Below, one piece after another: positions 6,311-44,447 of a stretch of DNA of 45,107 nt. Source of the DNA: a virus; the IMG/VR virus record IMGVR_UViG_3300033144_008002, positions 1 to 45,107 of that record; one strand, written 5' to 3'. The notes beneath the pieces were generated by a model. That model was not told where the DNA came from and searched no databases. It saw only the letters and a list, made by a program, of their open reading frames with translations. Position 1 is the first letter of the stretch; the number at the start of each line of letters is the position of its first letter. A program made the translations under genes and the position numbers.

Positions 6311-6691
6311 CTATTTGTTTTTGTCAACTTTCCTCATATCGTTTATCCACTCGTCTAATTTCAAGTTCAGTATCTCCATAGACTTATTTGGCACTGCCTT
6401 TACATTCTCGTTATTCGCAATCTTCGGCAATAGATAAATCGCCGCCATCTCTTTTGATGTTGGTACAAACAATGCTATTGAACCAAAGAAAATCAAAAAC
6501 GGTATAACAATTTTCATAGCGCGAAGAGATATATCCCTCGCTTCTTCCTCGTCTTTACGGCTGGCATCTTTAAATATAACATAACCTGCTATCGCAAATA
6601 ATGAGATAGCACCAGAAAGCAAAGACAACACGTGACACATTCTTATAATGCCGTCCAATCTCGTCAACCAATAAATCATACTACTTGTCAT
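6311..6691 (-). CDS. Membrane protein with two transmembrane helices
   Basis: A 126-residue protein from ATG 6691 (GGAGG four bases before it; the frame is open further up). Two hydrophobic helices are clear: VLSLLSGAISLFAIAGYVIF and a second around IVIPFLIFFGSIALFV, with a charged loop between them. The C-terminal tail is charged. Holin-like size and topology are possible, but there is no lysis neighbour to support that. Confidence 0.65.
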   Translation of the reverse strand: MTSSMIYWLTRLDGIIRMCHVLSLLSGAISLFAIAGYVIFKDASRKDEEEARDISLRAMKIVIPFLIFFGSIALFVPTSKEMAAIYLLPKIANNENVKAVPNKSMEILNLKLDEWINDMRKVDKNK

Positions 6692-8649
6692 TTTTCCTCC
6701 CTCAGCTTGTCTTGGAAATACCTCTTTAACAAGACAGCCGTTTCTTTGCACATCGCTCTTCTTGCCTGTTTACTATCAACTATTTCATCTTTCGACTCTC
6801 TTAATACGTCGTCTATCATTGCTTTCATAACAGCTTTTGTTTCTTTCATAGACGTTACCTCTATTTCCATAGAATCTATGACATGCCTTAATCTCATCGG
6901 CGTCACCCATTCTTCCGCTATCTCTTTTGCCTTGCTTAAAACCGCAAGTTCTTCTTGTGTCATCTTTGTATCTTTTTTAGACTTACGTTCGCTAAACTCT
7001 GCCCTCTTGTGCTTGGCTATTATTCTTCCACCGCCGTTAAGCGTTAGTTCTTCAACTGGTCGCAGAACGACCCCCTCTCTTATCTCGTTTTCTTTGCCTG
7101 TTCGCCACTTAGACACGATAGATGGCGCATCTCGCTCCGCATCTATGCTCTCTATGTCGCATGGGATTTTCTTATACGGGACAAACTCTATCCCCAACCT
7201 TGAGCAAACTATCTCTGCCCTGTCCATAGATAGCCAATAATCGCCTATCTTTACCTCAAACGCTGTAAACCATAGCTTGTCGCCGTAAATCTCTCTCATG
7301 CCCTGCATTGAATTGTGAACCAAAACATTGTTTGCAAAAAAGTTATGATTGTCTTTTACTTCAATATCAAATCTCTCGTTATAACAGGGCTGGTGGTACG
7401 GATTCCCATCTACGATTCTATTGATTTTTGTTTTTAATAGCCCCGTTGATGGCATATTCGCATTTATTATATCTACCGAATTTTGAACACTTCTAAATTT
7501 CAAATTTATTTTATATTTCATAGAATCGCAAATATATGGAGCAATTAAAAAGTGCAATTTATCAGTACCATTCGGAGAGAAGCGAACCCTGAAATACTTT
7601 TTATGTTTTTGCTTTTTTGCTTCTATATTACGACCATTAAACCACCCCACTATTATATCAACCTCTTTTTCTGTAAAGCCATCTGTACATAATAAACACT
7701 GGTTTCTTCTGCCGCCTGATGGGAACTTTCTTAAATTGCCATCATCCATATACCATATAGCTAACGATAGTGGCGACAACTTGTTTAAATATCTCAAGCT
7801 TATCTTCTTCTTATGGTTTTTATAAAGCCCTTCGCATATATCTTTTATTTCTGGAAGAGACCTTGTTCTAAAGCTTTTGCATAATGCCCCATAGCCACTG
7901 ACATAATTATCAGTTGCCCCTTTAATAGAATTAAGCAATGCTTCTTTGAATTTGAAATATTCAATTTGTTTCATAGAATGCCCATAGCAAAAACTTGAAC
8001 CAGCACGACTGCCATCCCCCAACAATCCTCCGCGAATTATATCTTCTTGGATGTTGGTTATGGCAAACGATGGGAGAAACAAAGTATCGCCAACTTTTAA
8101 CTTCCCCGCAACAGACGGAACAATCTCATTGCCTTGGGCAGTAAACACCTTGTGGTCTTTTGTTACAATCAGTCTCGTCGATTTTCCGCCGCGCAGCCTG
8201 CGGTCTATATGCAAAGTTATCCAGTTATTAATATTTTGCTTTCTGCTCCACCCAACTACTTTTTTATTCTCTAATCTCTGCTCTTTTATATTGTAAGTAA
8301 CGACAACCACCTCTAATCGATTGTTTACTATATCTCCGATTGGTTTTTTAGAGCCATCCGCCAATAGCACTGGGGTTCTCCACGCTAAGCAACCGCCGTA
8401 GGCCTCTCCGTAAACGACCACTCTATCTTGTCCAAATTCCCTGAAATTCTCTAATAGCTTCGTTCTATCGAAAAACTCCATAAATAACATGTTGCTCGCT
8501 CCACCGGAAAAGAACTTCACATCATCGGCTTCGCTGTTATAAGAAACATTTGCAGACGTCCCATGGATTTTCTCGGACGCAAAAAGCTCCTTGAACAACA
8601 TTATATTTCTACTACATTGATATAGGTTATTTATGTGGCGATATGCCAT
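6688..8649 (-). CDS. RNA ligase (Rnl2-like) interrupted by an intein
   Basis: A 653-residue precursor. The extein (residues 1-86 and 447-653, 293 residues once spliced) is a nucleotidyl ligase: motif I EKIHG with Lys27 as the adenylation site, motif III VVVYGEAYGG, motif IV EGVVLRP and motif V IAKHK. It seals RNA ends using ATP, typically to repair tRNA or mRNA nicked during infection. The intein occupies residues 87-446 and sits in motif III, between Gly86 and Ser447, so the ligase should be inactive until splicing. It overlaps the next gene by ATGA. Confidence 0.9.
   Translation of the reverse strand: MAYRHINNLYQCSRNIMLFKELFASEKIHGTSANVSYNSEADDVKFFSGGASNMLFMEFFDRTKLLENFREFGQDRVVVYGEAYGGCLAWRTPVLLADGSKKPIGDIVNNRLEVVVVTYNIKEQRLENKKVVGWSRKQNINNWITLHIDRRLRGGKSTRLIVTKDHKVFTAQGNEIVPSVAGKLKVGDTLFLPSFAITNIQEDIIRGGLLGDGSRAGSSFCYGHSMKQIEYFKFKEALLNSIKGATDNYVSGYGALCKSFRTRSLPEIKDICEGLYKNHKKKISLRYLNKLSPLSLAIWYMDDGNLRKFPSGGRRNQCLLCTDGFTEKEVDIIVGWFNGRNIEAKKQKHKKYFRVRFSPNGTDKLHFLIAPYICDSMKYKINLKFRSVQNSVDIINANMPSTGLLKTKINRIVDGNPYHQPCYNERFDIEVKDNHNFFANNVLVHNSMQGMREIYGDKLWFTAFEVKIGDYWLSMDRAEIVCSRLGIEFVPYKKIPCDIESIDAERDAPSIVSKWRTGKENEIREGVVLRPVEELTLNGGGRIIAKHKRAEFSERKSKKDTKMTQEELAVLSKAKEIAEEWVTPMRLRHVIDSMEIEVTSMKETKAVMKAMIDDVLRESKDEIVDSKQARRAMCKETAVLLKRYFQDKLREEK
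7312..8391 (-). mobile_element. Intein with LAGLIDADG-type homing endonuclease
   Basis: A 360-residue intein (residues 87-446 of the ligase precursor). It begins with Cys (CLAWRTPVLLADGS, block A), has the block B TKDH with its His, two dodecapeptide helices IIRGGLLGDGS and LSLAIWYMDDGN carrying the metal-binding Asp residues, and ends NNVLVHN followed by Ser as +1 nucleophile. All splicing residues look intact, so both splicing and homing activity are plausible. Confidence 0.92.
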
Positions 8650-12837: not shown

Positions 12838-13380
12838 TTAGAATGGTAAATCGTCTTCAAACATATCGTCAGTCCATGAGTATCCACTAGCCTGCCCAGA
12901 AAGCGTATATAATATCCCGCCTAGCCCACTTCTTATATTTGTTATGTTTCTCGATGTGCCTGACAAGGCAACCATTCCTATCGTAGCACTCACCCCAAAT
13001 TTGTACTCGCGATTTTCCAAGTCAACCCTAATTACTACCCTACTTCCAATAGCGAGGCGACTCACCTTCCTTGCGGTACGCTCAAACATCTCAGATGACC
13101 AAAAGGCCATACCGCCATCTAAATCAATTTTGTATCTATTCTCTGCATAAGTTTCGACACTGGTTATCTTCGCCCGCTGTCCTGCGTATTCTAGCATGGG
13201 TCGAACTGCTGATACATTATCGTAGAGACGACAGCGCAAATTCTTTAATATCACCACGCTATCTCCAACATGTAGCTTTCTGATGGCAGAGGGGTCTTCC
13301 TTCACAATCTTTAATACTTTTGGGATTTCTTTCCCAAAATGATTATGTTTTGCTAATATGTCTTTACTGCTCCATTTCAT
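12838..13380 (-). CDS. Beta-barrel repeat protein, paralogue of 17921-18646
   Basis: A 180-residue protein starting MKWSSKDILAKHNHFGKEIP at 13380 (AGGAG before it; the frame is open upstream). The first 30 residues are nearly identical to the protein at 17921-18646. Two roughly 65-residue repeats follow, each opening with a (V/I)G(D/S)-x-V motif and ending in W-(S/T)-x-(E/D)-MFE; they look like small SH3 or KOW-type barrels. Possibly a binding scaffold; function unknown. Confidence 0.7.
   Translation of the reverse strand: MKWSSKDILAKHNHFGKEIPKVLKIVKEDPSAIRKLHVGDSVVILKNLRCRLYDNVSAVRPMLEYAGQRAKITSVETYAENRYKIDLDGGMAFWSSEMFERTARKVSRLAIGSRVVIRVDLENREYKFGVSATIGMVALSGTSRNITNIRSGLGGILYTLSGQASGYSWTDDMFEDDLPF
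13293..13380 (-). repeat. 88-bp near-identical repeat, copy 1
   Basis: The 5' end of this gene matches 18559-18646 almost base for base across 88 bp. The two genes diverge after it, as expected from a recent duplication or gene conversion limited to the N-terminal segment. Confidence 0.85.
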
Positions 13381-13718: not shown

Positions 13719-14008
13719 TTGTTACTCTCCAACCCGCCCTTAAACACGGGCGTAAAATACCCGCTATCAAAATCTCTTGAAAGTTTTATAACATTGGAAA
13801 ATTGATAATCCGAAACAGCGTCGCAATGCCCTACAACATCGAGAAATCTTTCTCTTTCAGATAAATCAAACCCGTCGTATTCTCCGTTTTCAAAGATGAA
13901 AGAAAACCCGACGTGTCCTATATCATACCTCTCATAGGCAACACCGATTGCGCCTGCTTCATTCCCTAACAAGCCACCCTTTAATTTTACAACAGTTCCT
14001 ATTCTCAT
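13715..14008 (-). CDS. Hypothetical protein, SH3-like start
   Basis: A 97-residue protein, MRIGTVVKLKGGLLGNEAGA then a strand-rich body. The opening resembles small barrel proteins that bind nucleic acid or protein. It overlaps the ThiF-like gene by ATGA, so it may belong to the same transcript as the ubiquitin-like cassette. Confidence 0.6.
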   Translation of the reverse strand: MRIGTVVKLKGGLLGNEAGAIGVAYERYDIGHVGFSFIFENGEYDGFDLSERERFLDVVGHCDAVSDYQFSNVIKLSRDFDSGYFTPVFKGGLESNK

Positions 14009-14706
14009 TTTTTCTTCACCGCCTTTTTAGCAACTGGTAATTTCTTATAGTCTTTTACTAAATACCTTGTTATAATGTTGTTAGTATTGGCTATTATCTT
14101 ATAGTAATCTATTGTCTTCTTTAATACTATAAGAGAATACAGCAAATTTGCCACAAGCACAGCCATATAAGAGTTTATAATAGGGCTCTGTGCACCAGAC
14201 TCTAAACGTTCTGCGCACGACAGTTCGTCGGGGTGCTTATCGTTTGAATACTTTACATTGTCAAACAAATACCTTTCGCCCGCATTACTGCTTATAAATA
14301 TCTGCCCCCAATACTCTTCGTTGCCAATATCTATATATATGCTATCATGGAAACGCTTATACGCGTTTTGCATCATCAGCCTTGTTTTATTATTGTCTAC
14401 ACAGCCAATTAAAATTACATGATTGTAATAGCCCTCGAGAGTTTCATCGTTAATATAATGCGGTGTAAAATCTAACGACTTGCCATAAATACTTGAGTAT
14501 CTTACGGCCAGCGCCTCGGCCTTATTCCTTCCAAGGTCTTTCTGCGAAAAGTTTTGCCGTAATAAATTTTTCTCCTCTACGGTGTCCCCATCATATATGC
14601 GATACACCCTTATCCCCGAACTCCGGTGGTTCATAATCCTGCAAATGTGAGGCACAAGCCAGCTTCCGTTACCGCCAGCGCCCACTTGAATAATTTTTTG
14701 TATCAT
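14005..14706 (-). CDS. ThiF/E1-like adenylyltransferase (PRTRC ThiF-like)
   Basis: A 233-residue E1/ThiF-fold protein. It has the nucleotide loop VGAGGNGSWLV (residues 8-18), YDGDTVEEKNLLRQNF (38-53), DLGRNKAEAL (57-66) and VDNNKTR (103-109), which in this superfamily bind ATP and the C-terminus of a ubiquitin-like protein. Cys164 in ELSCAERLE is a candidate for the thioester Cys. It is the last gene of the ubiquitin-like cassette, directly after the JAMM gene, as in PRTRC cassettes. The expected role is to adenylate the small protein encoded at 17172-17348. Confidence 0.87.
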   Translation of the reverse strand: MIQKIIQVGAGGNGSWLVPHICRIMNHRSSGIRVYRIYDGDTVEEKNLLRQNFSQKDLGRNKAEALAVRYSSIYGKSLDFTPHYINDETLEGYYNHVILIGCVDNNKTRLMMQNAYKRFHDSIYIDIGNEEYWGQIFISSNAGERYLFDNVKYSNDKHPDELSCAERLESGAQSPIINSYMAVLVANLLYSLIVLKKTIDYYKIIANTNNIITRYLVKDYKKLPVAKKAVKKK

Positions 14707-14718
14707 TGTTCCCTCCTT

Positions 14719-15591
14719 TTATTCATACTCACAGGAAAACTCGTTAAAGAGTTTCCCCTGCTTTCCACATTTCAACATTTTCTTTATAGTCTTCGACATA
14801 ATTCTGAGTTCTTTTTTATCAAGATTTTGCAAAAAACTCATCGCCCAATCAAAGTCACTGTCGTCGGCACCAACTCCAATTTTGTGGACATCCTTCATAT
14901 GCGCATCTCTATACTTGTCGGCATCGCTTTGAACTCCATAACGCCATGTCTTTCCATAGTTAGGATATTTTTCTGCAAATGTCTGCTGTATTATTTTCTT
15001 GTCCCACTCCTCTCTTGGAAAATCAGGATACTCGAAAACAGCTTTTAACGCAACGTTCTTCCGACCGGCTCGCAATTTTAGCATAGAGCCATCTGCCGAA
15101 TCTATTTCGCCTATAACACCGAATATTCTACAGCCACGCTCATCGGCGTCATCTGTTCCAGAAAAAAACGCTCCCATAGTATTGTGCGAATGAATGTCCA
15201 ATACTAGCAAGTGCCTTTTTTCTAATTCCTCGTTTCTTTTTGCGTGAACAGATGCTCCGCTAACTTCTTGCTCTGGAATATAAATGAAATACTTTTTCTC
15301 ATCTCTGTTCCAAAAAATCTGCGCCATTATTTCCGATGTGTGTGCCTTAAACCACAATTCTATTTGCAATAGAAGCTCTAAAGGAATTTTCGGCAATGTC
15401 CACTCGAAACTTTCGTCAACTACATCGAGCGGTATTTCGTTTACTTTTTCTACGAACGTCCCAATCTCGTTTTTAGTTACTTTCTTTACGCCTTCTCCAT
15501 CCATAACAAATGATATTGGCTTTGCAGATTTTGGTGTTTCAATATCAAAACCGGCAGCTTGCCTAACCATTTTCTTTTCATTTTCTGTCAT
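14719..15591 (-). CDS. JAB/JAMM metalloprotease (PRTRC protein A-like)
   Basis: A 290-residue protein with a complete JAMM zinc site: Glu87 (SEIMAQIFW), His134 and His136 (DIHSHN), then Ser144 and Asp147 (FFSGTDD), i.e. H-x-H-x7-S-x2-D. JAMM enzymes cleave isopeptide or peptide bonds next to ubiquitin-like proteins. The C-terminal 90 residues are extra and helical. Its place between E2-like and E1-like genes points to processing or removing the phage ubiquitin-like protein. GGAGG five bases before ATG 15591. Confidence 0.87.
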   Translation of the reverse strand: MTENEKKMVRQAAGFDIETPKSAKPISFVMDGEGVKKVTKNEIGTFVEKVNEIPLDVVDESFEWTLPKIPLELLLQIELWFKAHTSEIMAQIFWNRDEKKYFIYIPEQEVSGASVHAKRNEELEKRHLLVLDIHSHNTMGAFFSGTDDADERGCRIFGVIGEIDSADGSMLKLRAGRKNVALKAVFEYPDFPREEWDKKIIQQTFAEKYPNYGKTWRYGVQSDADKYRDAHMKDVHKIGVGADDSDFDWAMSFLQNLDKKELRIMSKTIKKMLKCGKQGKLFNEFSCEYE

Positions 15592-15605
15592 GCTTTCCTC
15601 CCTAC

Positions 15606-16265
15606 TTATTCAAAAACCCAACTTTCAACAGTATGTCGTCTCTCTTTATCCTTTAACTCTGCTAACTTTTCGTAAAGCTTATTCCCCGTGTCCTTTTCGT
15701 ATGAAAAGTTTTTCCAACGCAAAAAATACGCCTCGATACCACCCGGATATCCGTAATCTAAGTCTTTATTAAATTTGCTTCCCAAGAATTGCAACGGCGC
15801 TATTTCCTCTTTTATCTGTTGGCTACCAAAGCAAATCTTGCAATCGTTGTGTATATTAGAAAACGGAGCATGATACAACTTTAATTTTAATATATTTTGC
15901 CCGATTATAGTAATATCTCTTAAGCATCTTTCTACTGCGCAAACTTTTGTACCACCGTTCACGCATATGTCCCACAATAAGTTTGGAACTAATACATTTT
16001 TTATTTTTTTGCTATAAAAGTCCATTTGCGGCTCGATATGCTCCCTCGTTATAACATAACGATGAGGCCTTCCCCCTACAGAAGAGTGTGCAATTGTCCC
16101 CATATCTCCGATAAACGACAACATTGGCGTTGCCATTTTAATTTCTCCGGACACCGCACTTATAAAAGACGACAGTTTTACAAACTTTGTCCTTAAGCCG
16201 CCACCGCTCTCCTCATATACGATAAGACCGTCGCTGCCAATCATCTCAAACAATTTCCTACTCAT
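15606..16265 (-). CDS. E2-like protein (PRTRC protein B / Prok-E2 type)
   Basis: A 219-residue protein. Its centre reads LKLYHAPFSNIHNDCKICFGS (residues about 128-148): the HAPF-x-N-x-x-x-x...C-x-GS signature of PRTRC protein B, a family placed in the prokaryotic E2 group. Cys145, just before GS, is the candidate catalytic Cys; Cys142 is nearby. GGAGG precedes ATG 16265. With E1, JAMM and a ubiquitin-like gene around it, a conjugating role is likely but unproven. The alternative is a structural protein of the PRTRC complex. Confidence 0.72.
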   Translation of the reverse strand: MSRKLFEMIGSDGLIVYEESGGGLRTKFVKLSSFISAVSGEIKMATPMLSFIGDMGTIAHSSVGGRPHRYVITREHIEPQMDFYSKKIKNVLVPNLLWDICVNGGTKVCAVERCLRDITIIGQNILKLKLYHAPFSNIHNDCKICFGSQQIKEEIAPLQFLGSKFNKDLDYGYPGGIEAYFLRWKNFSYEKDTGNKLYEKLAELKDKERRHTVESWVFE

Positions 16266-16902
16266 TCTTCCTCCTATTTGCTGCCAAAGCAGCGTTAAAT
16301 TTTTCTTGTAACGCCAAGCGACTTGCCTCTGTAGCCCTAGCTCTTGCCTCGGCTGCGTCTGCTGAAGCCCTGTTTTTTGCTTCTGCTGTTAGCTTACTTT
16401 CGTAATCCCTCCTCCAACTTTTGTATATCTTCAACCTCGTGCATGCCATAGCGGCTCTTGTTATTGCCACAATATCAATATATGGCTCAAAAATAGTTAT
16501 GTCCCGCTTTATGTTATATTTTTCGTACGCAGTGTGAAGGAGTTCATTTATGTATGTCCTTCTACTACAACCGTCTTCTTTGTCTGTTTTATTTATGATT
16601 ATATACTGAATCCTGAGTTTGGACGATGAGTAGTAATTAGAAGACGCCTGCGATGTCACAAAGTATTCTTTCCCGCGAATTTTAAAAGTTATATTAAGTT
16701 GTTTTTTAATAGCGTTTCTAAGCGTTTTTCTTCTCCATTCATAATCAAGCGTGCCTGTGCCGCATAAAACTTTATCCTTGCATTTTCCGTTACGATAAAA
16801 CTGTCTGCGCAATTTTATTGCACACAGTGTTTCAATATTGTTGCTAAGTTTTTCGAGCATCGAGTCGTCGTATATTTTTAATATTTTACCAATATTCTTC
16901 AT
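16258..16902 (-). CDS. Cassette protein of unknown function with Ala-rich coiled-coil tail
   Basis: A 214-residue basic protein. The first 150 residues have no motif I recognise; the last 50 (AEAKNRASADAAEARARATEA and on) form a long Ala/Arg/Glu helix, probably a coiled coil. It lies between the ubiquitin-like and E2-like genes with overlaps on both sides, so it belongs to the cassette transcript and may take the place of a PRTRC accessory protein such as F. Confidence 0.65.
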   Translation of the reverse strand: MKNIGKILKIYDDSMLEKLSNNIETLCAIKLRRQFYRNGKCKDKVLCGTGTLDYEWRRKTLRNAIKKQLNITFKIRGKEYFVTSQASSNYYSSSKLRIQYIIINKTDKEDGCSRRTYINELLHTAYEKYNIKRDITIFEPYIDIVAITRAAMACTRLKIYKSWRRDYESKLTAEAKNRASADAAEARARATEASRLALQEKFNAALAANRRKNE

Positions 16903-17113
16903 CGTTCACCTCACTACCAAGGCTGATAGAAATTTCATTACGCCCAATATTCATCCTTAGCTTGTCTATCATATGGCAAATTTTATTGCACACACCTAAG
17001 TTTAAGTTATCAATAAAATCTTTGTTATTTTTTTCTGTAAGCAATGCCATTTTTTTAGCTACTTTTATCGCCTTGTCTACATCGCCGAACCTGTTTAGCT
17101 TTTCTATCTTCAT
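16886..17113 (-). CDS. Small hypothetical cassette protein
   Basis: A 75-residue helical protein, MKIEKLNRFGDVDKAIKVAK and NLGVCNKICHMIDKL. GAGG precedes ATG 17113. It follows the ubiquitin-like gene after a strong hairpin and overlaps the next gene. Function unknown. Confidence 0.6.
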   Translation of the reverse strand: MKIEKLNRFGDVDKAIKVAKKMALLTEKNNKDFIDNLNLGVCNKICHMIDKLRMNIGRNEISISLGSEVNDEEYW

Positions 17114-17134
17114 CGTTTGTTTCCTCTACGAGGT

Positions 17135-17160
17135 GGGGAGAGGGCTTGCGCCCTCCCCCC
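17135..17160 (-). other. Strong GC hairpin after the ubiquitin-like gene
   Basis: A near-perfect 11-bp stem (GGGGGGAGGGC / GCCCTCTCCCC on the minus strand, one mismatch) capped by a GCAA tetraloop of the GNRA type. No T-run follows, so it is unlikely to be a full terminator; it may stabilise the upstream message or reduce expression of the downstream cassette genes relative to the ubiquitin-like protein. Confidence 0.7.
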
Positions 17161-17171
17161 TATGGACAACA

Positions 17172-17348
17172 TCAACCCTTTGTTGCAAACTCTTCTTGGA
17201 ACTCAAAGTTCCCCTCTGGCGTTGTCACAATCGACGCATTTCTAACTTCCGGGAAAATGCTTTCCATTGCCACGCGCACCTCGCTTTCAGTAGCGCCCTC
17301 TGGCACTTCAATCGGGGGGTTACTCCCGAACTTCGCTGTCTTTGACAT
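17172..17348 (-). CDS. Ubiquitin-like small protein (PRTRC protein C-like)
   Basis: A 58-residue protein starting MSKTAKFGSNPPIEVPEGAT at 17348, six bases after GGAGG. The layout strand, P-E-x-x-x-E-V-R helix, FPEVRNASI strand, EGNFEF strand and a C-terminal TKG tail fits the PRTRC protein C / Prok_Ub group of small beta-grasp proteins, which typically end in GTKG. It lacks a diglycine, as those do. It is the likely substrate of the E1-like, E2-like and JAMM proteins encoded downstream. The frame is open for 50 codons upstream but those overlap the gene at 17320. Confidence 0.75.
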   Translation of the reverse strand: MSKTAKFGSNPPIEVPEGATESEVRVAMESIFPEVRNASIVTTPEGNFEFQEEFATKG

Positions 17349-17928
17349 CCTGTTCCTCCTTGCCCGACAGGGCGTTTGAAAGAGCCATGCTAACATTATC
17401 AGCATCCGCTTTTTCTTTATCAATAAAGTTTTCAAGAGCCTCTGTCGATTTTTCAACTGACCAACCGCTCTTGTCTTCAATTGCAATATCAAACGAACCA
17501 CCAACGGTTCGCAGAATATACAGCATTCTCAAATACAGCGCCTTTGCATCGGCTCTATCATAGTCTGTATCTACACTATATTCTCCATGCCCCTCCCATC
17601 TCATTCCTATTTTTTCTATTCCAAATAAAACAGTTTTATTTCCTATTCGAAACGGCTGCACTATAACAGTGTCAACGTTTTTTACAGAATACTCAACATA
17701 TTCCTTTTTCATATATTTAAAAGTTATCATTTCCATTGTGTCTATACTACGACTCTCTTCCGTGGGCTTTTTCGGTTCAGAAGTATAGCATAGCTCTTTG
17801 CTCCAATTTTGGTTAATACAAAGGTTTCCTGTCTGATGCCCTTCTTTTGTAAGCCAAAGGCTAATCGCACAGAACTTGTGCGAGACAACTCTAATCTTAT
17901 CTTTGCTTGTTATCTTCCATTTAATCAT
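17320..17928 (-). CDS. First gene of the PRTRC-like cassette, unknown function
   Basis: A 202-residue protein from ATG 17928 (GGAGG before it): MIKWKITSKDKIRVVSHKF. Strand-rich with a helical acidic C-terminus. Its last codons overlap the ubiquitin-like gene by 29 bases. By position it could correspond to PRTRC protein E, but no sequence match can be claimed. Confidence 0.65.
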   Translation of the reverse strand: MIKWKITSKDKIRVVSHKFCAISLWLTKEGHQTGNLCINQNWSKELCYTSEPKKPTEESRSIDTMEMITFKYMKKEYVEYSVKNVDTVIVQPFRIGNKTVLFGIEKIGMRWEGHGEYSVDTDYDRADAKALYLRMLYILRTVGGSFDIAIEDKSGWSVEKSTEALENFIDKEKADADNVSMALSNALSGKEEQDVKDSEVRE

Positions 17929-18646
17929 TTTGCGCCTCCTCAAACATCTCTGCTGACCAGCAATATAAATAACCGAATAATTTATACATTCCCGTACGCG
18001 AAACCTCTGTAATTACATATGTCCTGCCGCCAAGCTCAGCCATTCTGCCATTGACATCTACTCCGTCGTATATCTCGCCAATAACTAGCGTTGACTTAAC
18101 ACGCACTCTATCACCAACGTGAAATTCCCGCTCAGCCGAAACTGCCGTTAGCATTTGCGGTGTCCACATGCGCAGTCCGCTATCAATATTTAATCTATAA
18201 AACACGCCATTATCGACAACTTCTGTTATTGAGGCTTCTTTCCCACAGTGTTTCATCATATCCGGAACGGCACAATACTTGCCGTATTCTTCCCATTCCA
18301 CAAGGTCGCTTATAATCCTTACCCTGTCTCCAACGGCAAAGACCGCAGGCTCAAACATCTCCGACGACCACCACCACCTGTTGCCATCTAAATCAATTTT
18401 GTAGCGATTTGATTCACTACCAAACCCAGTTATCTTTGCCTGCTTTCCTTTATATTTTAGCATACTTCCAACTACCCCGCACCCATTGTAATGCCGTTCT
18501 CGCAAATCCTTTAATATCGTCACACTATCTCCAACATGTAGCTTTCCGCTAACACGAGGGTCTTCCTTTACAATCTTTAATACTTTTGGGATTTCTTTCC
18601 CAAAATGATTATGTTTTGCTAATATGTCTTTACTGCTCCATTTCAT
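17921..18646 (-). CDS. Triple beta-barrel repeat protein, paralogue of 12838-13380
   Basis: A 241-residue protein with the same N-terminal 30 residues as the gene at 12838-13380, then three tandem repeats of about 65 residues. Each starts (H/A)VGD-x-V-x-(I/V), has a glycine-rich turn, and ends W-(S/T)-(S/P/A)-(E/Q)-M(F/L). These are probably SH3 or KOW-type barrels. AAGGAG precedes ATG 18646. It sits directly upstream of the ubiquitin-like cassette and overlaps its first gene. Confidence 0.72.
   Translation of the reverse strand: MKWSSKDILAKHNHFGKEIPKVLKIVKEDPRVSGKLHVGDSVTILKDLRERHYNGCGVVGSMLKYKGKQAKITGFGSESNRYKIDLDGNRWWWSSEMFEPAVFAVGDRVRIISDLVEWEEYGKYCAVPDMMKHCGKEASITEVVDNGVFYRLNIDSGLRMWTPQMLTAVSAEREFHVGDRVRVKSTLVIGEIYDGVDVNGRMAELGGRTYVITEVSRTGMYKLFGYLYCWSAEMFEEAQND
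18559..18646 (-). repeat. 88-bp near-identical repeat, copy 2
   Basis: Second copy of the segment at 13293-13380, covering the first 29 codons of the gene. The two flank the PRTRC-like cassette in the same orientation, 5.3 kb apart, so recombination between them would excise the cassette. Confidence 0.85.
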
Positions 18647-43478: not shown

Positions 43479-44369
43479 ATGATAGACATTAAAAAAGCAT
43501 TGGACACTTCTTCGGGCGCTAATATAATCCCCGAAAAGTTAGACAAATTACTGTTGGATGTAGTTTCCAAGACTAATCCGCTTAGGGCATATGTTCCTAG
43601 TATGGCTTGGTCAACATTGGTATATCTGTGGAACGTGAGAACCGCTCTTGTTACGGCTTCGGCTTATGATGAGAACGATGCTTACAGCGCAGCGAATTCA
43701 ACAATCGCACGGCGTACTACTCAGATAAAGATGATTAAGGCCGAGGGCGCCGTAAGTAATCTTTTGAAAGCGGTTTCCGGAGATTATATCAACGCGTTAC
43801 AGGAAGAGGTTGAGTCTGCCATAAATAGCCTTGCTATGGAAGAGGCGAGACTTGATATTCTTGGAGATGCGAGTGTTAACGTTAAGGAATATAGCGGGCT
43901 TAAGAAACTTGTTACGACAACTACGGATGCGGCTGGGACAGCCCTTTCGCTTGATATACTTGATGCGTCGATAGCCGCCTCTAGAAAAGCGGGTGCGTTT
44001 CCGAATGTTATCCTGCTTTCTCCGAGAGACTATTCTCAGCTTAAAAAGGCCGCGAAAACATCTTATCAGATGTATTACAACGACCTTGGCAAGTCCGAGG
44101 CTGTTCTTAAATATGACGGCATAGATGTTGTGATAAACTCGTGGATACCCGAAGATATTGCCTATGGCACGTCTCCTACATCAGACCACTCGATAGCGTT
44201 TGTTCTTGATACTAAACATATCAAACGGCCTGTCGTGCAGGAAGTCAAGTATGCCGTGGTACCTGCTAGCACGGACTCGACAGCTTTCCGCGTAAATGAG
44301 TATCTTACTCTTGCGGTTAAGGACGTTGAGAGACAGCGGCAGATAATTAACATCGGGAAACCTAGCTAA
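43479..44369 (+). CDS. Major capsid protein, HK97-like
   Basis: A 296-residue protein starting MIDIKKALDTSSGANIIPEK at 43479, behind GGAGGAATCAA; the frame is open upstream but overlaps the scaffold gene. Blocks: LRAYVPSMAWSTLVYLWN, IKAEGAVSNLLKAVSG, ALQEEVESAINSLAMEEARL (spine helix), LSPRDYSQLKKAAK and a C-terminal strand set ending RQIINIGK. Fits HK97-fold major capsid proteins in size and order; it follows scaffold and protease genes. Confidence 0.82.
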   Translation: MIDIKKALDTSSGANIIPEKLDKLLLDVVSKTNPLRAYVPSMAWSTLVYLWNVRTALVTASAYDENDAYSAANSTIARRTTQIKMIKAEGAVSNLLKAVSGDYINALQEEVESAINSLAMEEARLDILGDASVNVKEYSGLKKLVTTTTDAAGTALSLDILDASIAASRKAGAFPNVILLSPRDYSQLKKAAKTSYQMYYNDLGKSEAVLKYDGIDVVINSWIPEDIAYGTSPTSDHSIAFVLDTKHIKRPVVQEVKYAVVPASTDSTAFRVNEYLTLAVKDVERQRQIINIGKPS

Positions 44370-44389
44370 TACTAGGCAGACAGAATTGT

Positions 44390-44421
44390 TGGGAGGGTGG
44401 CTCTTTTGAGCCGTCCTCCCA
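44390..44421 (+). other. Strong hairpin between capsid and connector genes
   Basis: TGGGAGG...CCTCCCA outer stem over GGCTC-TTTT-GAGCC. No T-run follows. It probably lowers read-through or protects the capsid message, giving more capsid than connector. Confidence 0.7.
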
Positions 44422-44447
44422 CGTGTAAAAGGGGAAGGTGAGGTGTT

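Follow-up and report, generated by a model that had tools for sequence, protein, structure and literature searches.

A probable PRTRC-like ubiquitin-like conjugation operon in a tailed phage

Can a phage carry a complete pathway for attaching a ubiquitin-like protein to other proteins and removing it again, and which proteins would it modify? The question is raised by IMG/VR record IMGVR_UViG_3300033144_008002, whose 45,107 bases (the window, meaning the whole stretch of DNA analysed) carry on the minus strand, from 17348 to 14005, a cassette with genes for a ubiquitin-like protein (Ub), an E2-like enzyme, a JAMM protease and an E1-like enzyme. We conclude, with a probability of roughly 0.78, that this is a complete and intact ubiquitin-like conjugation operon of the kind described as PRTRC or type 6d, carried by a tailed phage and working by the mechanism proposed below. 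The four genes are as follows.

17172..17348, minus strand: ubiquitin-like protein, 58 aa, C-terminus ATKG (already mature); from leave-one-out profile, shuffles and AlphaFold2
15606..16265, minus strand: E2-like conjugating enzyme, 219 aa, predicted catalytic Cys145 with Asn137 upstream; from Prok-E2_D and leave-one-out profile
14719..15591, minus strand: JAMM (JAB) metalloprotease, 290 aa, with E87, H134, H136, S144 and D147; from PRTRC_A and Prok-JAB
14005..14706, minus strand: E1-like ThiF adenylyltransferase, 233 aa, predicted catalytic Cys164; from PRTRC_ThiF and ThiF

The conjugation genes

An earlier interpretation made from the DNA letters without database searches (the sequence-only reading) had seen in these four genes the marks of a complete ubiquitin-like pathway. 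All four open reading frames (ORFs) lie where it placed them, their motifs are as it described, and each shows homology in leave-one-out searches. For these searches, hidden Markov model (HMM) profiles were built from homologues only, with the window excluded, and were run against a set of 15,328 ORFs taken from the window and from the loci fetched.

The E1 carries GAGGNG and C164 and matches PRTRC_ThiF (2.9e-24) and ThiF (1.1e-14), while the protease has the JAMM motif H134-S-H136-x7-S144-x2-D147 and matches PRTRC_A (1e-17) and Prok-JAB (1.8e-9). Their leave-one-out E-values are 4.5e-56 for E1 and 7.3e-48 for JAMM, and for both the next window ORF has an E-value of about 9 or worse. Residues G9, G11, G12, G14, D39, R50, Q51, K62, D104 and C164 are invariant among 12 E1s (an alignment too divergent to serve as a scan query), as are E87, H134, H136, S144 and D147 across 10 JAMM proteins.

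The E2-like protein, with the motif HAPFSNIHNDCKICFGS, matches Prok-E2_D at 9.5e-6, marginally above the gathering threshold (25.9 against 25 bits), and PRTRC_B at 0.0015. Its leave-one-out E-value is 8.7e-8, or 6e-12 with a larger alignment, and again the next window ORF lies at about 9 or worse. P94, N137, C145, G147 and N166 are invariant in 19 E2s, and D168 is nearly so. For all three enzymes, the catalytic residues do not vary between the phage and plasmid homologues compared. The region around N137 and C145 reads PF-x-N-x7-C-x-G, which is reminiscent of HPN...C in the E2s of eukaryotes. Where plasmid forms have a conserved downstream His, the protein has Asn-x-Asp (N166-x-D168); the phage E2 reads FNKD here and the plasmid PRTRC_B protein of a Paraburkholderia plasmid (L014) reads FTHP. 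Asn-x-Asp or close variants are common to most phage and Firmicute forms.

The smallest component was recovered by the leave-one-out profile at an E-value of 0.01 among all ORFs searched, the next window ORF having an E-value of 90. Every match that outscored it lies within a cassette locus, and many of these are frames that hold Ub-like repeats together with a JAMM domain. Its score of 18.6 bits compares with a maximum of 12.6 among 5000 shuffles in which the TKG end was kept, and hhalign gave a probability of 90% (E 1.4e-6). The AlphaFold2 model (predicted local distance difference test score, pLDDT, 82.8) has the order strand-strand-helix-strand-strand, which is the β-β-α-β-β order of the β-grasp, and the 58-aa protein is thus predicted to adopt this fold. 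P12, P33, K57 and G58 are invariant in seven viral homologues. A match of the E2 gene to an E2 model and a β-grasp fold for Ub were the two results on which the sequence-only reading had made itself depend; the first was obtained marginally and the second as a prediction.

Related cassettes in phages, plasmids and Clostridia

The order Ub-E2-JAMM-E1 recurs in the fully covered phage cassettes (L005, L007, L008, L009 and L021-L026) and in plasmids of Paraburkholderia and Cytobacillus (L014 and L017); the exception is L004, in which Ub-like repeats are fused to JAMM. Named phages with cassettes are Bacillus KLEB27-3, Salmonella Arash and Vibrio D69, to which two more phages are closely related; Acinetobacter ME3 has a broken cassette. 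Uncultivated phages also carry the set in this order. By homology, sister sets are present in several unrelated large phages, cultivated ones among them. The view that such cassettes are known mainly from plasmids and genomic islands holds in so far as the sister systems are mainly on plasmids and large elements, but other phages carry them too. Single JAMM, E2 and portal sequences used to scan viral records gave no matches.

In several relatives Ub is encoded as a polyprotein. The KLEB27-3 gene comprises four tandem 57-aa units and a 7-aa tail, that of D69 three tandem units and a tail, and that of the Cytobacillus plasmid two units and one residue. These precursors with extra C-terminal residues imply that JAMM acts on Ub. 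The KLEB27-3 protein matches PRTRC_C at 8.8e-17 (four repeats summed), and through this match and the leave-one-out profile the window Ub is tied to PRTRC_C. In Clostridia genomes JAMM adjoins E1, and its frame often includes a Ub-like match; the E2, where seen, lies further downstream of the two.

In ME3 (L010, 2819-7840) Ub ends in GNKAA, about 2 kb with a tRNA and small ORFs separate the two parts of a split JAMM gene, and the place of E2 is taken by a gene that the E2 profile does not detect. The split perhaps reflects an inactive cassette or an intron. Since PRTRC protein A had been annotated in the ME3 record before, parts of the cassette were already known from phage records. The Ub gene of Arash (L008, 107-304, ending GTKG) is unannotated, GenBank having a gene in another frame there, and a search against annotated proteins alone would therefore have missed it.

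Two further gene sets were noted among the loci. In viral loci L002 and L003 (8684-12079) a 106-113-aa gene ending in KKG comes before E1; the E2 there belongs to the Prok-E2_D family, and no JAMM gene was found nearby. In L050, L054, L056 and others there is a recurrent adjacent gene starting MKTLYIPKGE, which looks bactofilin-like by eye; the one tested had no Pfam match.

Operon layout and phage context

The cassette lies in a long minus-strand gene run and would be transcribed in the order Ub, P0002, P0003, E2, JAMM, E1. The remaining features are listed below.

17135..17161, minus strand: GC-rich hairpin directly 3' of the Ub gene, without a T-run; from folding energy and z-score
16886..17113, minus strand: P0002, 75-aa operon protein; an ORF with no family match
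16258..16902, minus strand: P0003, 214-aa protein at the place of the helical protein or PRTRC F; by position only

The four conjugation genes had been described as neighbours; they do share one operon, but P0002 and P0003 stand between Ub and E2. Spacing is tight: two junctions overlap, by 17 and 8 bases, and two have gaps, of 14 and 12 bases. All four conjugation ORFs are preceded by Shine-Dalgarno-like sites. The Ub gene overlaps an upstream 202-aa gene by 29 bases and is separated from P0002 by 58 bases that include the hairpin. The interval first proposed, 14005-17928, contains the cassette genes, but its upstream part (17320-17928, the 202-aa ORF) has no shown link to them; as a candidate for PRTRC E this ORF gave no signal in hhalign. 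P0003 has no family match and was rejected as PRTRC F, having given no signal with leave-one-out HMM, with hhalign (unrelated window proteins serving as controls) or with the PRTRC F model. Small ORFs occur at the spot equivalent to P0002 in several sister cassettes; hhalign found no sequence similarity between P0002 and these, and the proposal that P0002 is their homologue likewise gave no signal with leave-one-out HMM.

GC content is 39.6% in the cassette and 39.3% in the whole record, which is probably a fragment. PHROG matches are good for the portal, the head protease and the major head protein, and weaker for the large terminase. We regard the origin from a tailed phage as sound, since the structural module is shared with two other viral contigs at 45-65% identity over the better conserved parts.

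The hairpin after the Ub gene (-29.7 kcal/mol, z -3.8) is the second strongest in the window. Most sister cassettes have a hairpin at this place, several with T-runs like terminators. The mean z is -2.6 after Ub and -0.15 at other cassette junctions (p 0.0002, a guide only, as the control junctions mostly run into coding sequence and the loci are related). The hairpin is a possible attenuator or 3' stabiliser, and its strength and place point to a probable surplus of Ub relative to the enzymes.

Three other features of the window were noted. Its strongest hairpin (44361-44422) is located where the major head protein gene ends. Paralogous genes at 12838-13380 and 17921-18646, nearly identical in their first 30 residues, flank the cassette. 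An RNA ligase gene at 6688-8649 is split by an intein with a LAGLIDADG endonuclease.

Proposed mechanism and targets

From homology and the intact active sites we infer the following cycle. The E1 would adenylate Gly58 of Ub and hold Ub as a thioester on Cys164; Ub would then pass to Cys145 of E2, which would join it to lysines of target proteins, and the JAMM protease would take it off again. Because Ub already ends at Gly in the window, JAMM is here expected to be mainly deconjugating, while in relatives it would also have to cut the poly-Ub precursors.

A hint as to the target comes from sister loci. A DnaN-like sliding-clamp gene directly follows E1, usually overlapping it by a few bases, in 28 loci, which are related by descent; most are in genomes of Oscillospiraceae and other Clostridia (L006, L019, L020, L031 and L032 are included). 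The clamp candidates tested beside E1 match Pfam β-clamp domains, some below cut-off. This coupling points to replication proteins, and by analogy a DNA replication or recombination protein of phage or host may be the most likely target, a tentative proposal that we hold at less than even odds. Its generalisation is speculative and doubtful: PRTRC-like Ub systems might serve mobile elements and large phages for the reversible tagging of replication proteins, in some cases of a dedicated DnaN-like clamp, and the copies in phages might modify the replisome of the phage or of its host. If true, reversible clamp tagging would be a bacterial counterpart of PCNA ubiquitination in eukaryotes. Further clamps were observed within the loci of pQBR103 and Alicyclobacillus.

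Several results weigh against a conjugation operon with this function. Ub alone matched none of the library models searched, and in a structural comparison of its model with the PDB the matches included ubiquitins at a template-modelling (TM) score of about 0.6, but none was significant. The E2 profile did not match solved E2s among PDB chains; the AlphaFold2 model of E2 was poor (pLDDT 68), and a Foldseek comparison with the PDB did not show an E2 fold. The window itself yielded no clamp gene.

Alternative explanations

Related bacterial ubiquitin-like systems act against phage, and the cassette might turn such systems round, with conjugation directed at other phages or at host defence by tagging competitor virions or defence proteins. 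We consider this possible but somewhat unlikely. Conjugation by the cyclic-oligonucleotide-based anti-phage signalling system (CBASS) is directed against phage (PMC11153139), and the particle proteome table of Arash includes Gp246, Gp247, Gp248 and Gp249 (PMC10585845). That table and GenBank, which labels gp246 and gp248 structural, do not agree in full, and their numbering may differ; carry-over of abundant enzymes into particles is also allowed for by the authors of the table (PMC10585845). A role in defence or competition is also at odds with the prevalence of sister systems on plasmids and large elements and with the replication clamp that is often coupled directly to E1; in PADLOC, matches of the four cassette proteins are confined to the E1 domain of E1-E2 models.

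A sulfur-carrier pathway would use the same E1 chemistry for another end: E1 would provide the small protein with a thiocarboxylate to be used in biosynthesis or in a tRNA reaction, and JAMM would release the product, as in CysO/Mec. The relation of E1 to ThiF/MoeB, a small β-grasp protein with C-terminal Gly and a PAPS-reductase-like gene elsewhere in the window are consistent with it. We nevertheless find it improbable, given that full cassettes include an E2-like protein which is conserved and has an invariant Cys, and that relatives have poly-Ub precursors; thiamine or molybdopterin genes were not noticed beside the cassette. Still less credible is a decaying or non-functional remnant of a plasmid cassette, which the lack of detectable homologues of P0002 and P0003 and scores under the PRTRC cut-offs might suggest, but which is countered by the absence of frameshifts, an intact residue at every active-site position, Shine-Dalgarno-like sites and tight spacing.

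In their make-up, PRTRC-type systems resemble full ubiquitin pathways of bacteria. In the open-access literature we found no paper that gives their function and nothing on phage-borne cassettes of this kind; of 26 papers that mention PRTRC, none has a title concerning phage. With intact sets in cultivated phages, a protein-tagging system of unexplained purpose becomes testable in laboratory phages.

Comparison with known systems

PRTRC plasmids, with the arrangement ParB-E-C-F-B-A-ThiF (e.g. that of Paraburkholderia), have homologous E1, JAMM, E2 and Ub in the same order. The sequence-only reading was right about this order and content and about the lack of ParB and protein D, neither of which was found in the record with TIGR03734 and TIGR03739; the ParB result applies to a probable fragment. 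The protein F model (TIGR03742) and PRTRC_C also had no match in the record. Of the PRTRC and Prok-E2 models that it had proposed for checking, those for E1 and JAMM match, E2 is marginal and PRTRC_C fails. All scores fall below the curated NCBIfam cut-offs: 85.8 against 144.75 bits for PRTRC_ThiF, 64.4 against 101.8 bits for PRTRC_A and 17.9 against 131.45 bits for PRTRC_B. Judged by sequence, the cassette is a PRTRC-like or type-6d-like phage variant, homologous to the PRTRC conjugation core. It is not PRTRC sensu stricto, because ParB and protein D are missing, the scores are below cut-off and its E2 has Asn-x-Asp instead of His.

The type 6d operon of Iyer et al. 2006 (PMC1779556) comprises a small Ub with C-terminal Gly, an E2 with conserved Cys, a JAB protein and an E1, together with a largely helical conserved protein, a downstream His in E2 and a JAB-N domain with conserved Arg and Trp. 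The phage operon has the same adjacent components, Ub with its C-terminal Gly included; it differs in being phage-borne and in lacking the downstream E2 His, and the helical protein is matched by the position of P0003 only.

The counterparts in the named phages KLEB27-3, Arash and D69 have homologous components in the order of the window. Tandem Ub in KLEB27-3 (four copies) and D69 (three) contrasts with the single mature Ub of the window, from which ME3 departs by its split JAMM gene, its Ub terminus and the undetected gene at the E2 place. The CBASS Cap2/Cap3 and Bil-type anti-phage systems have the logic of E1, E2 and JAMM in common with the cassette; unlike them, the phage cassette encodes E1 and E2 as separate proteins and provides a dedicated Ub.

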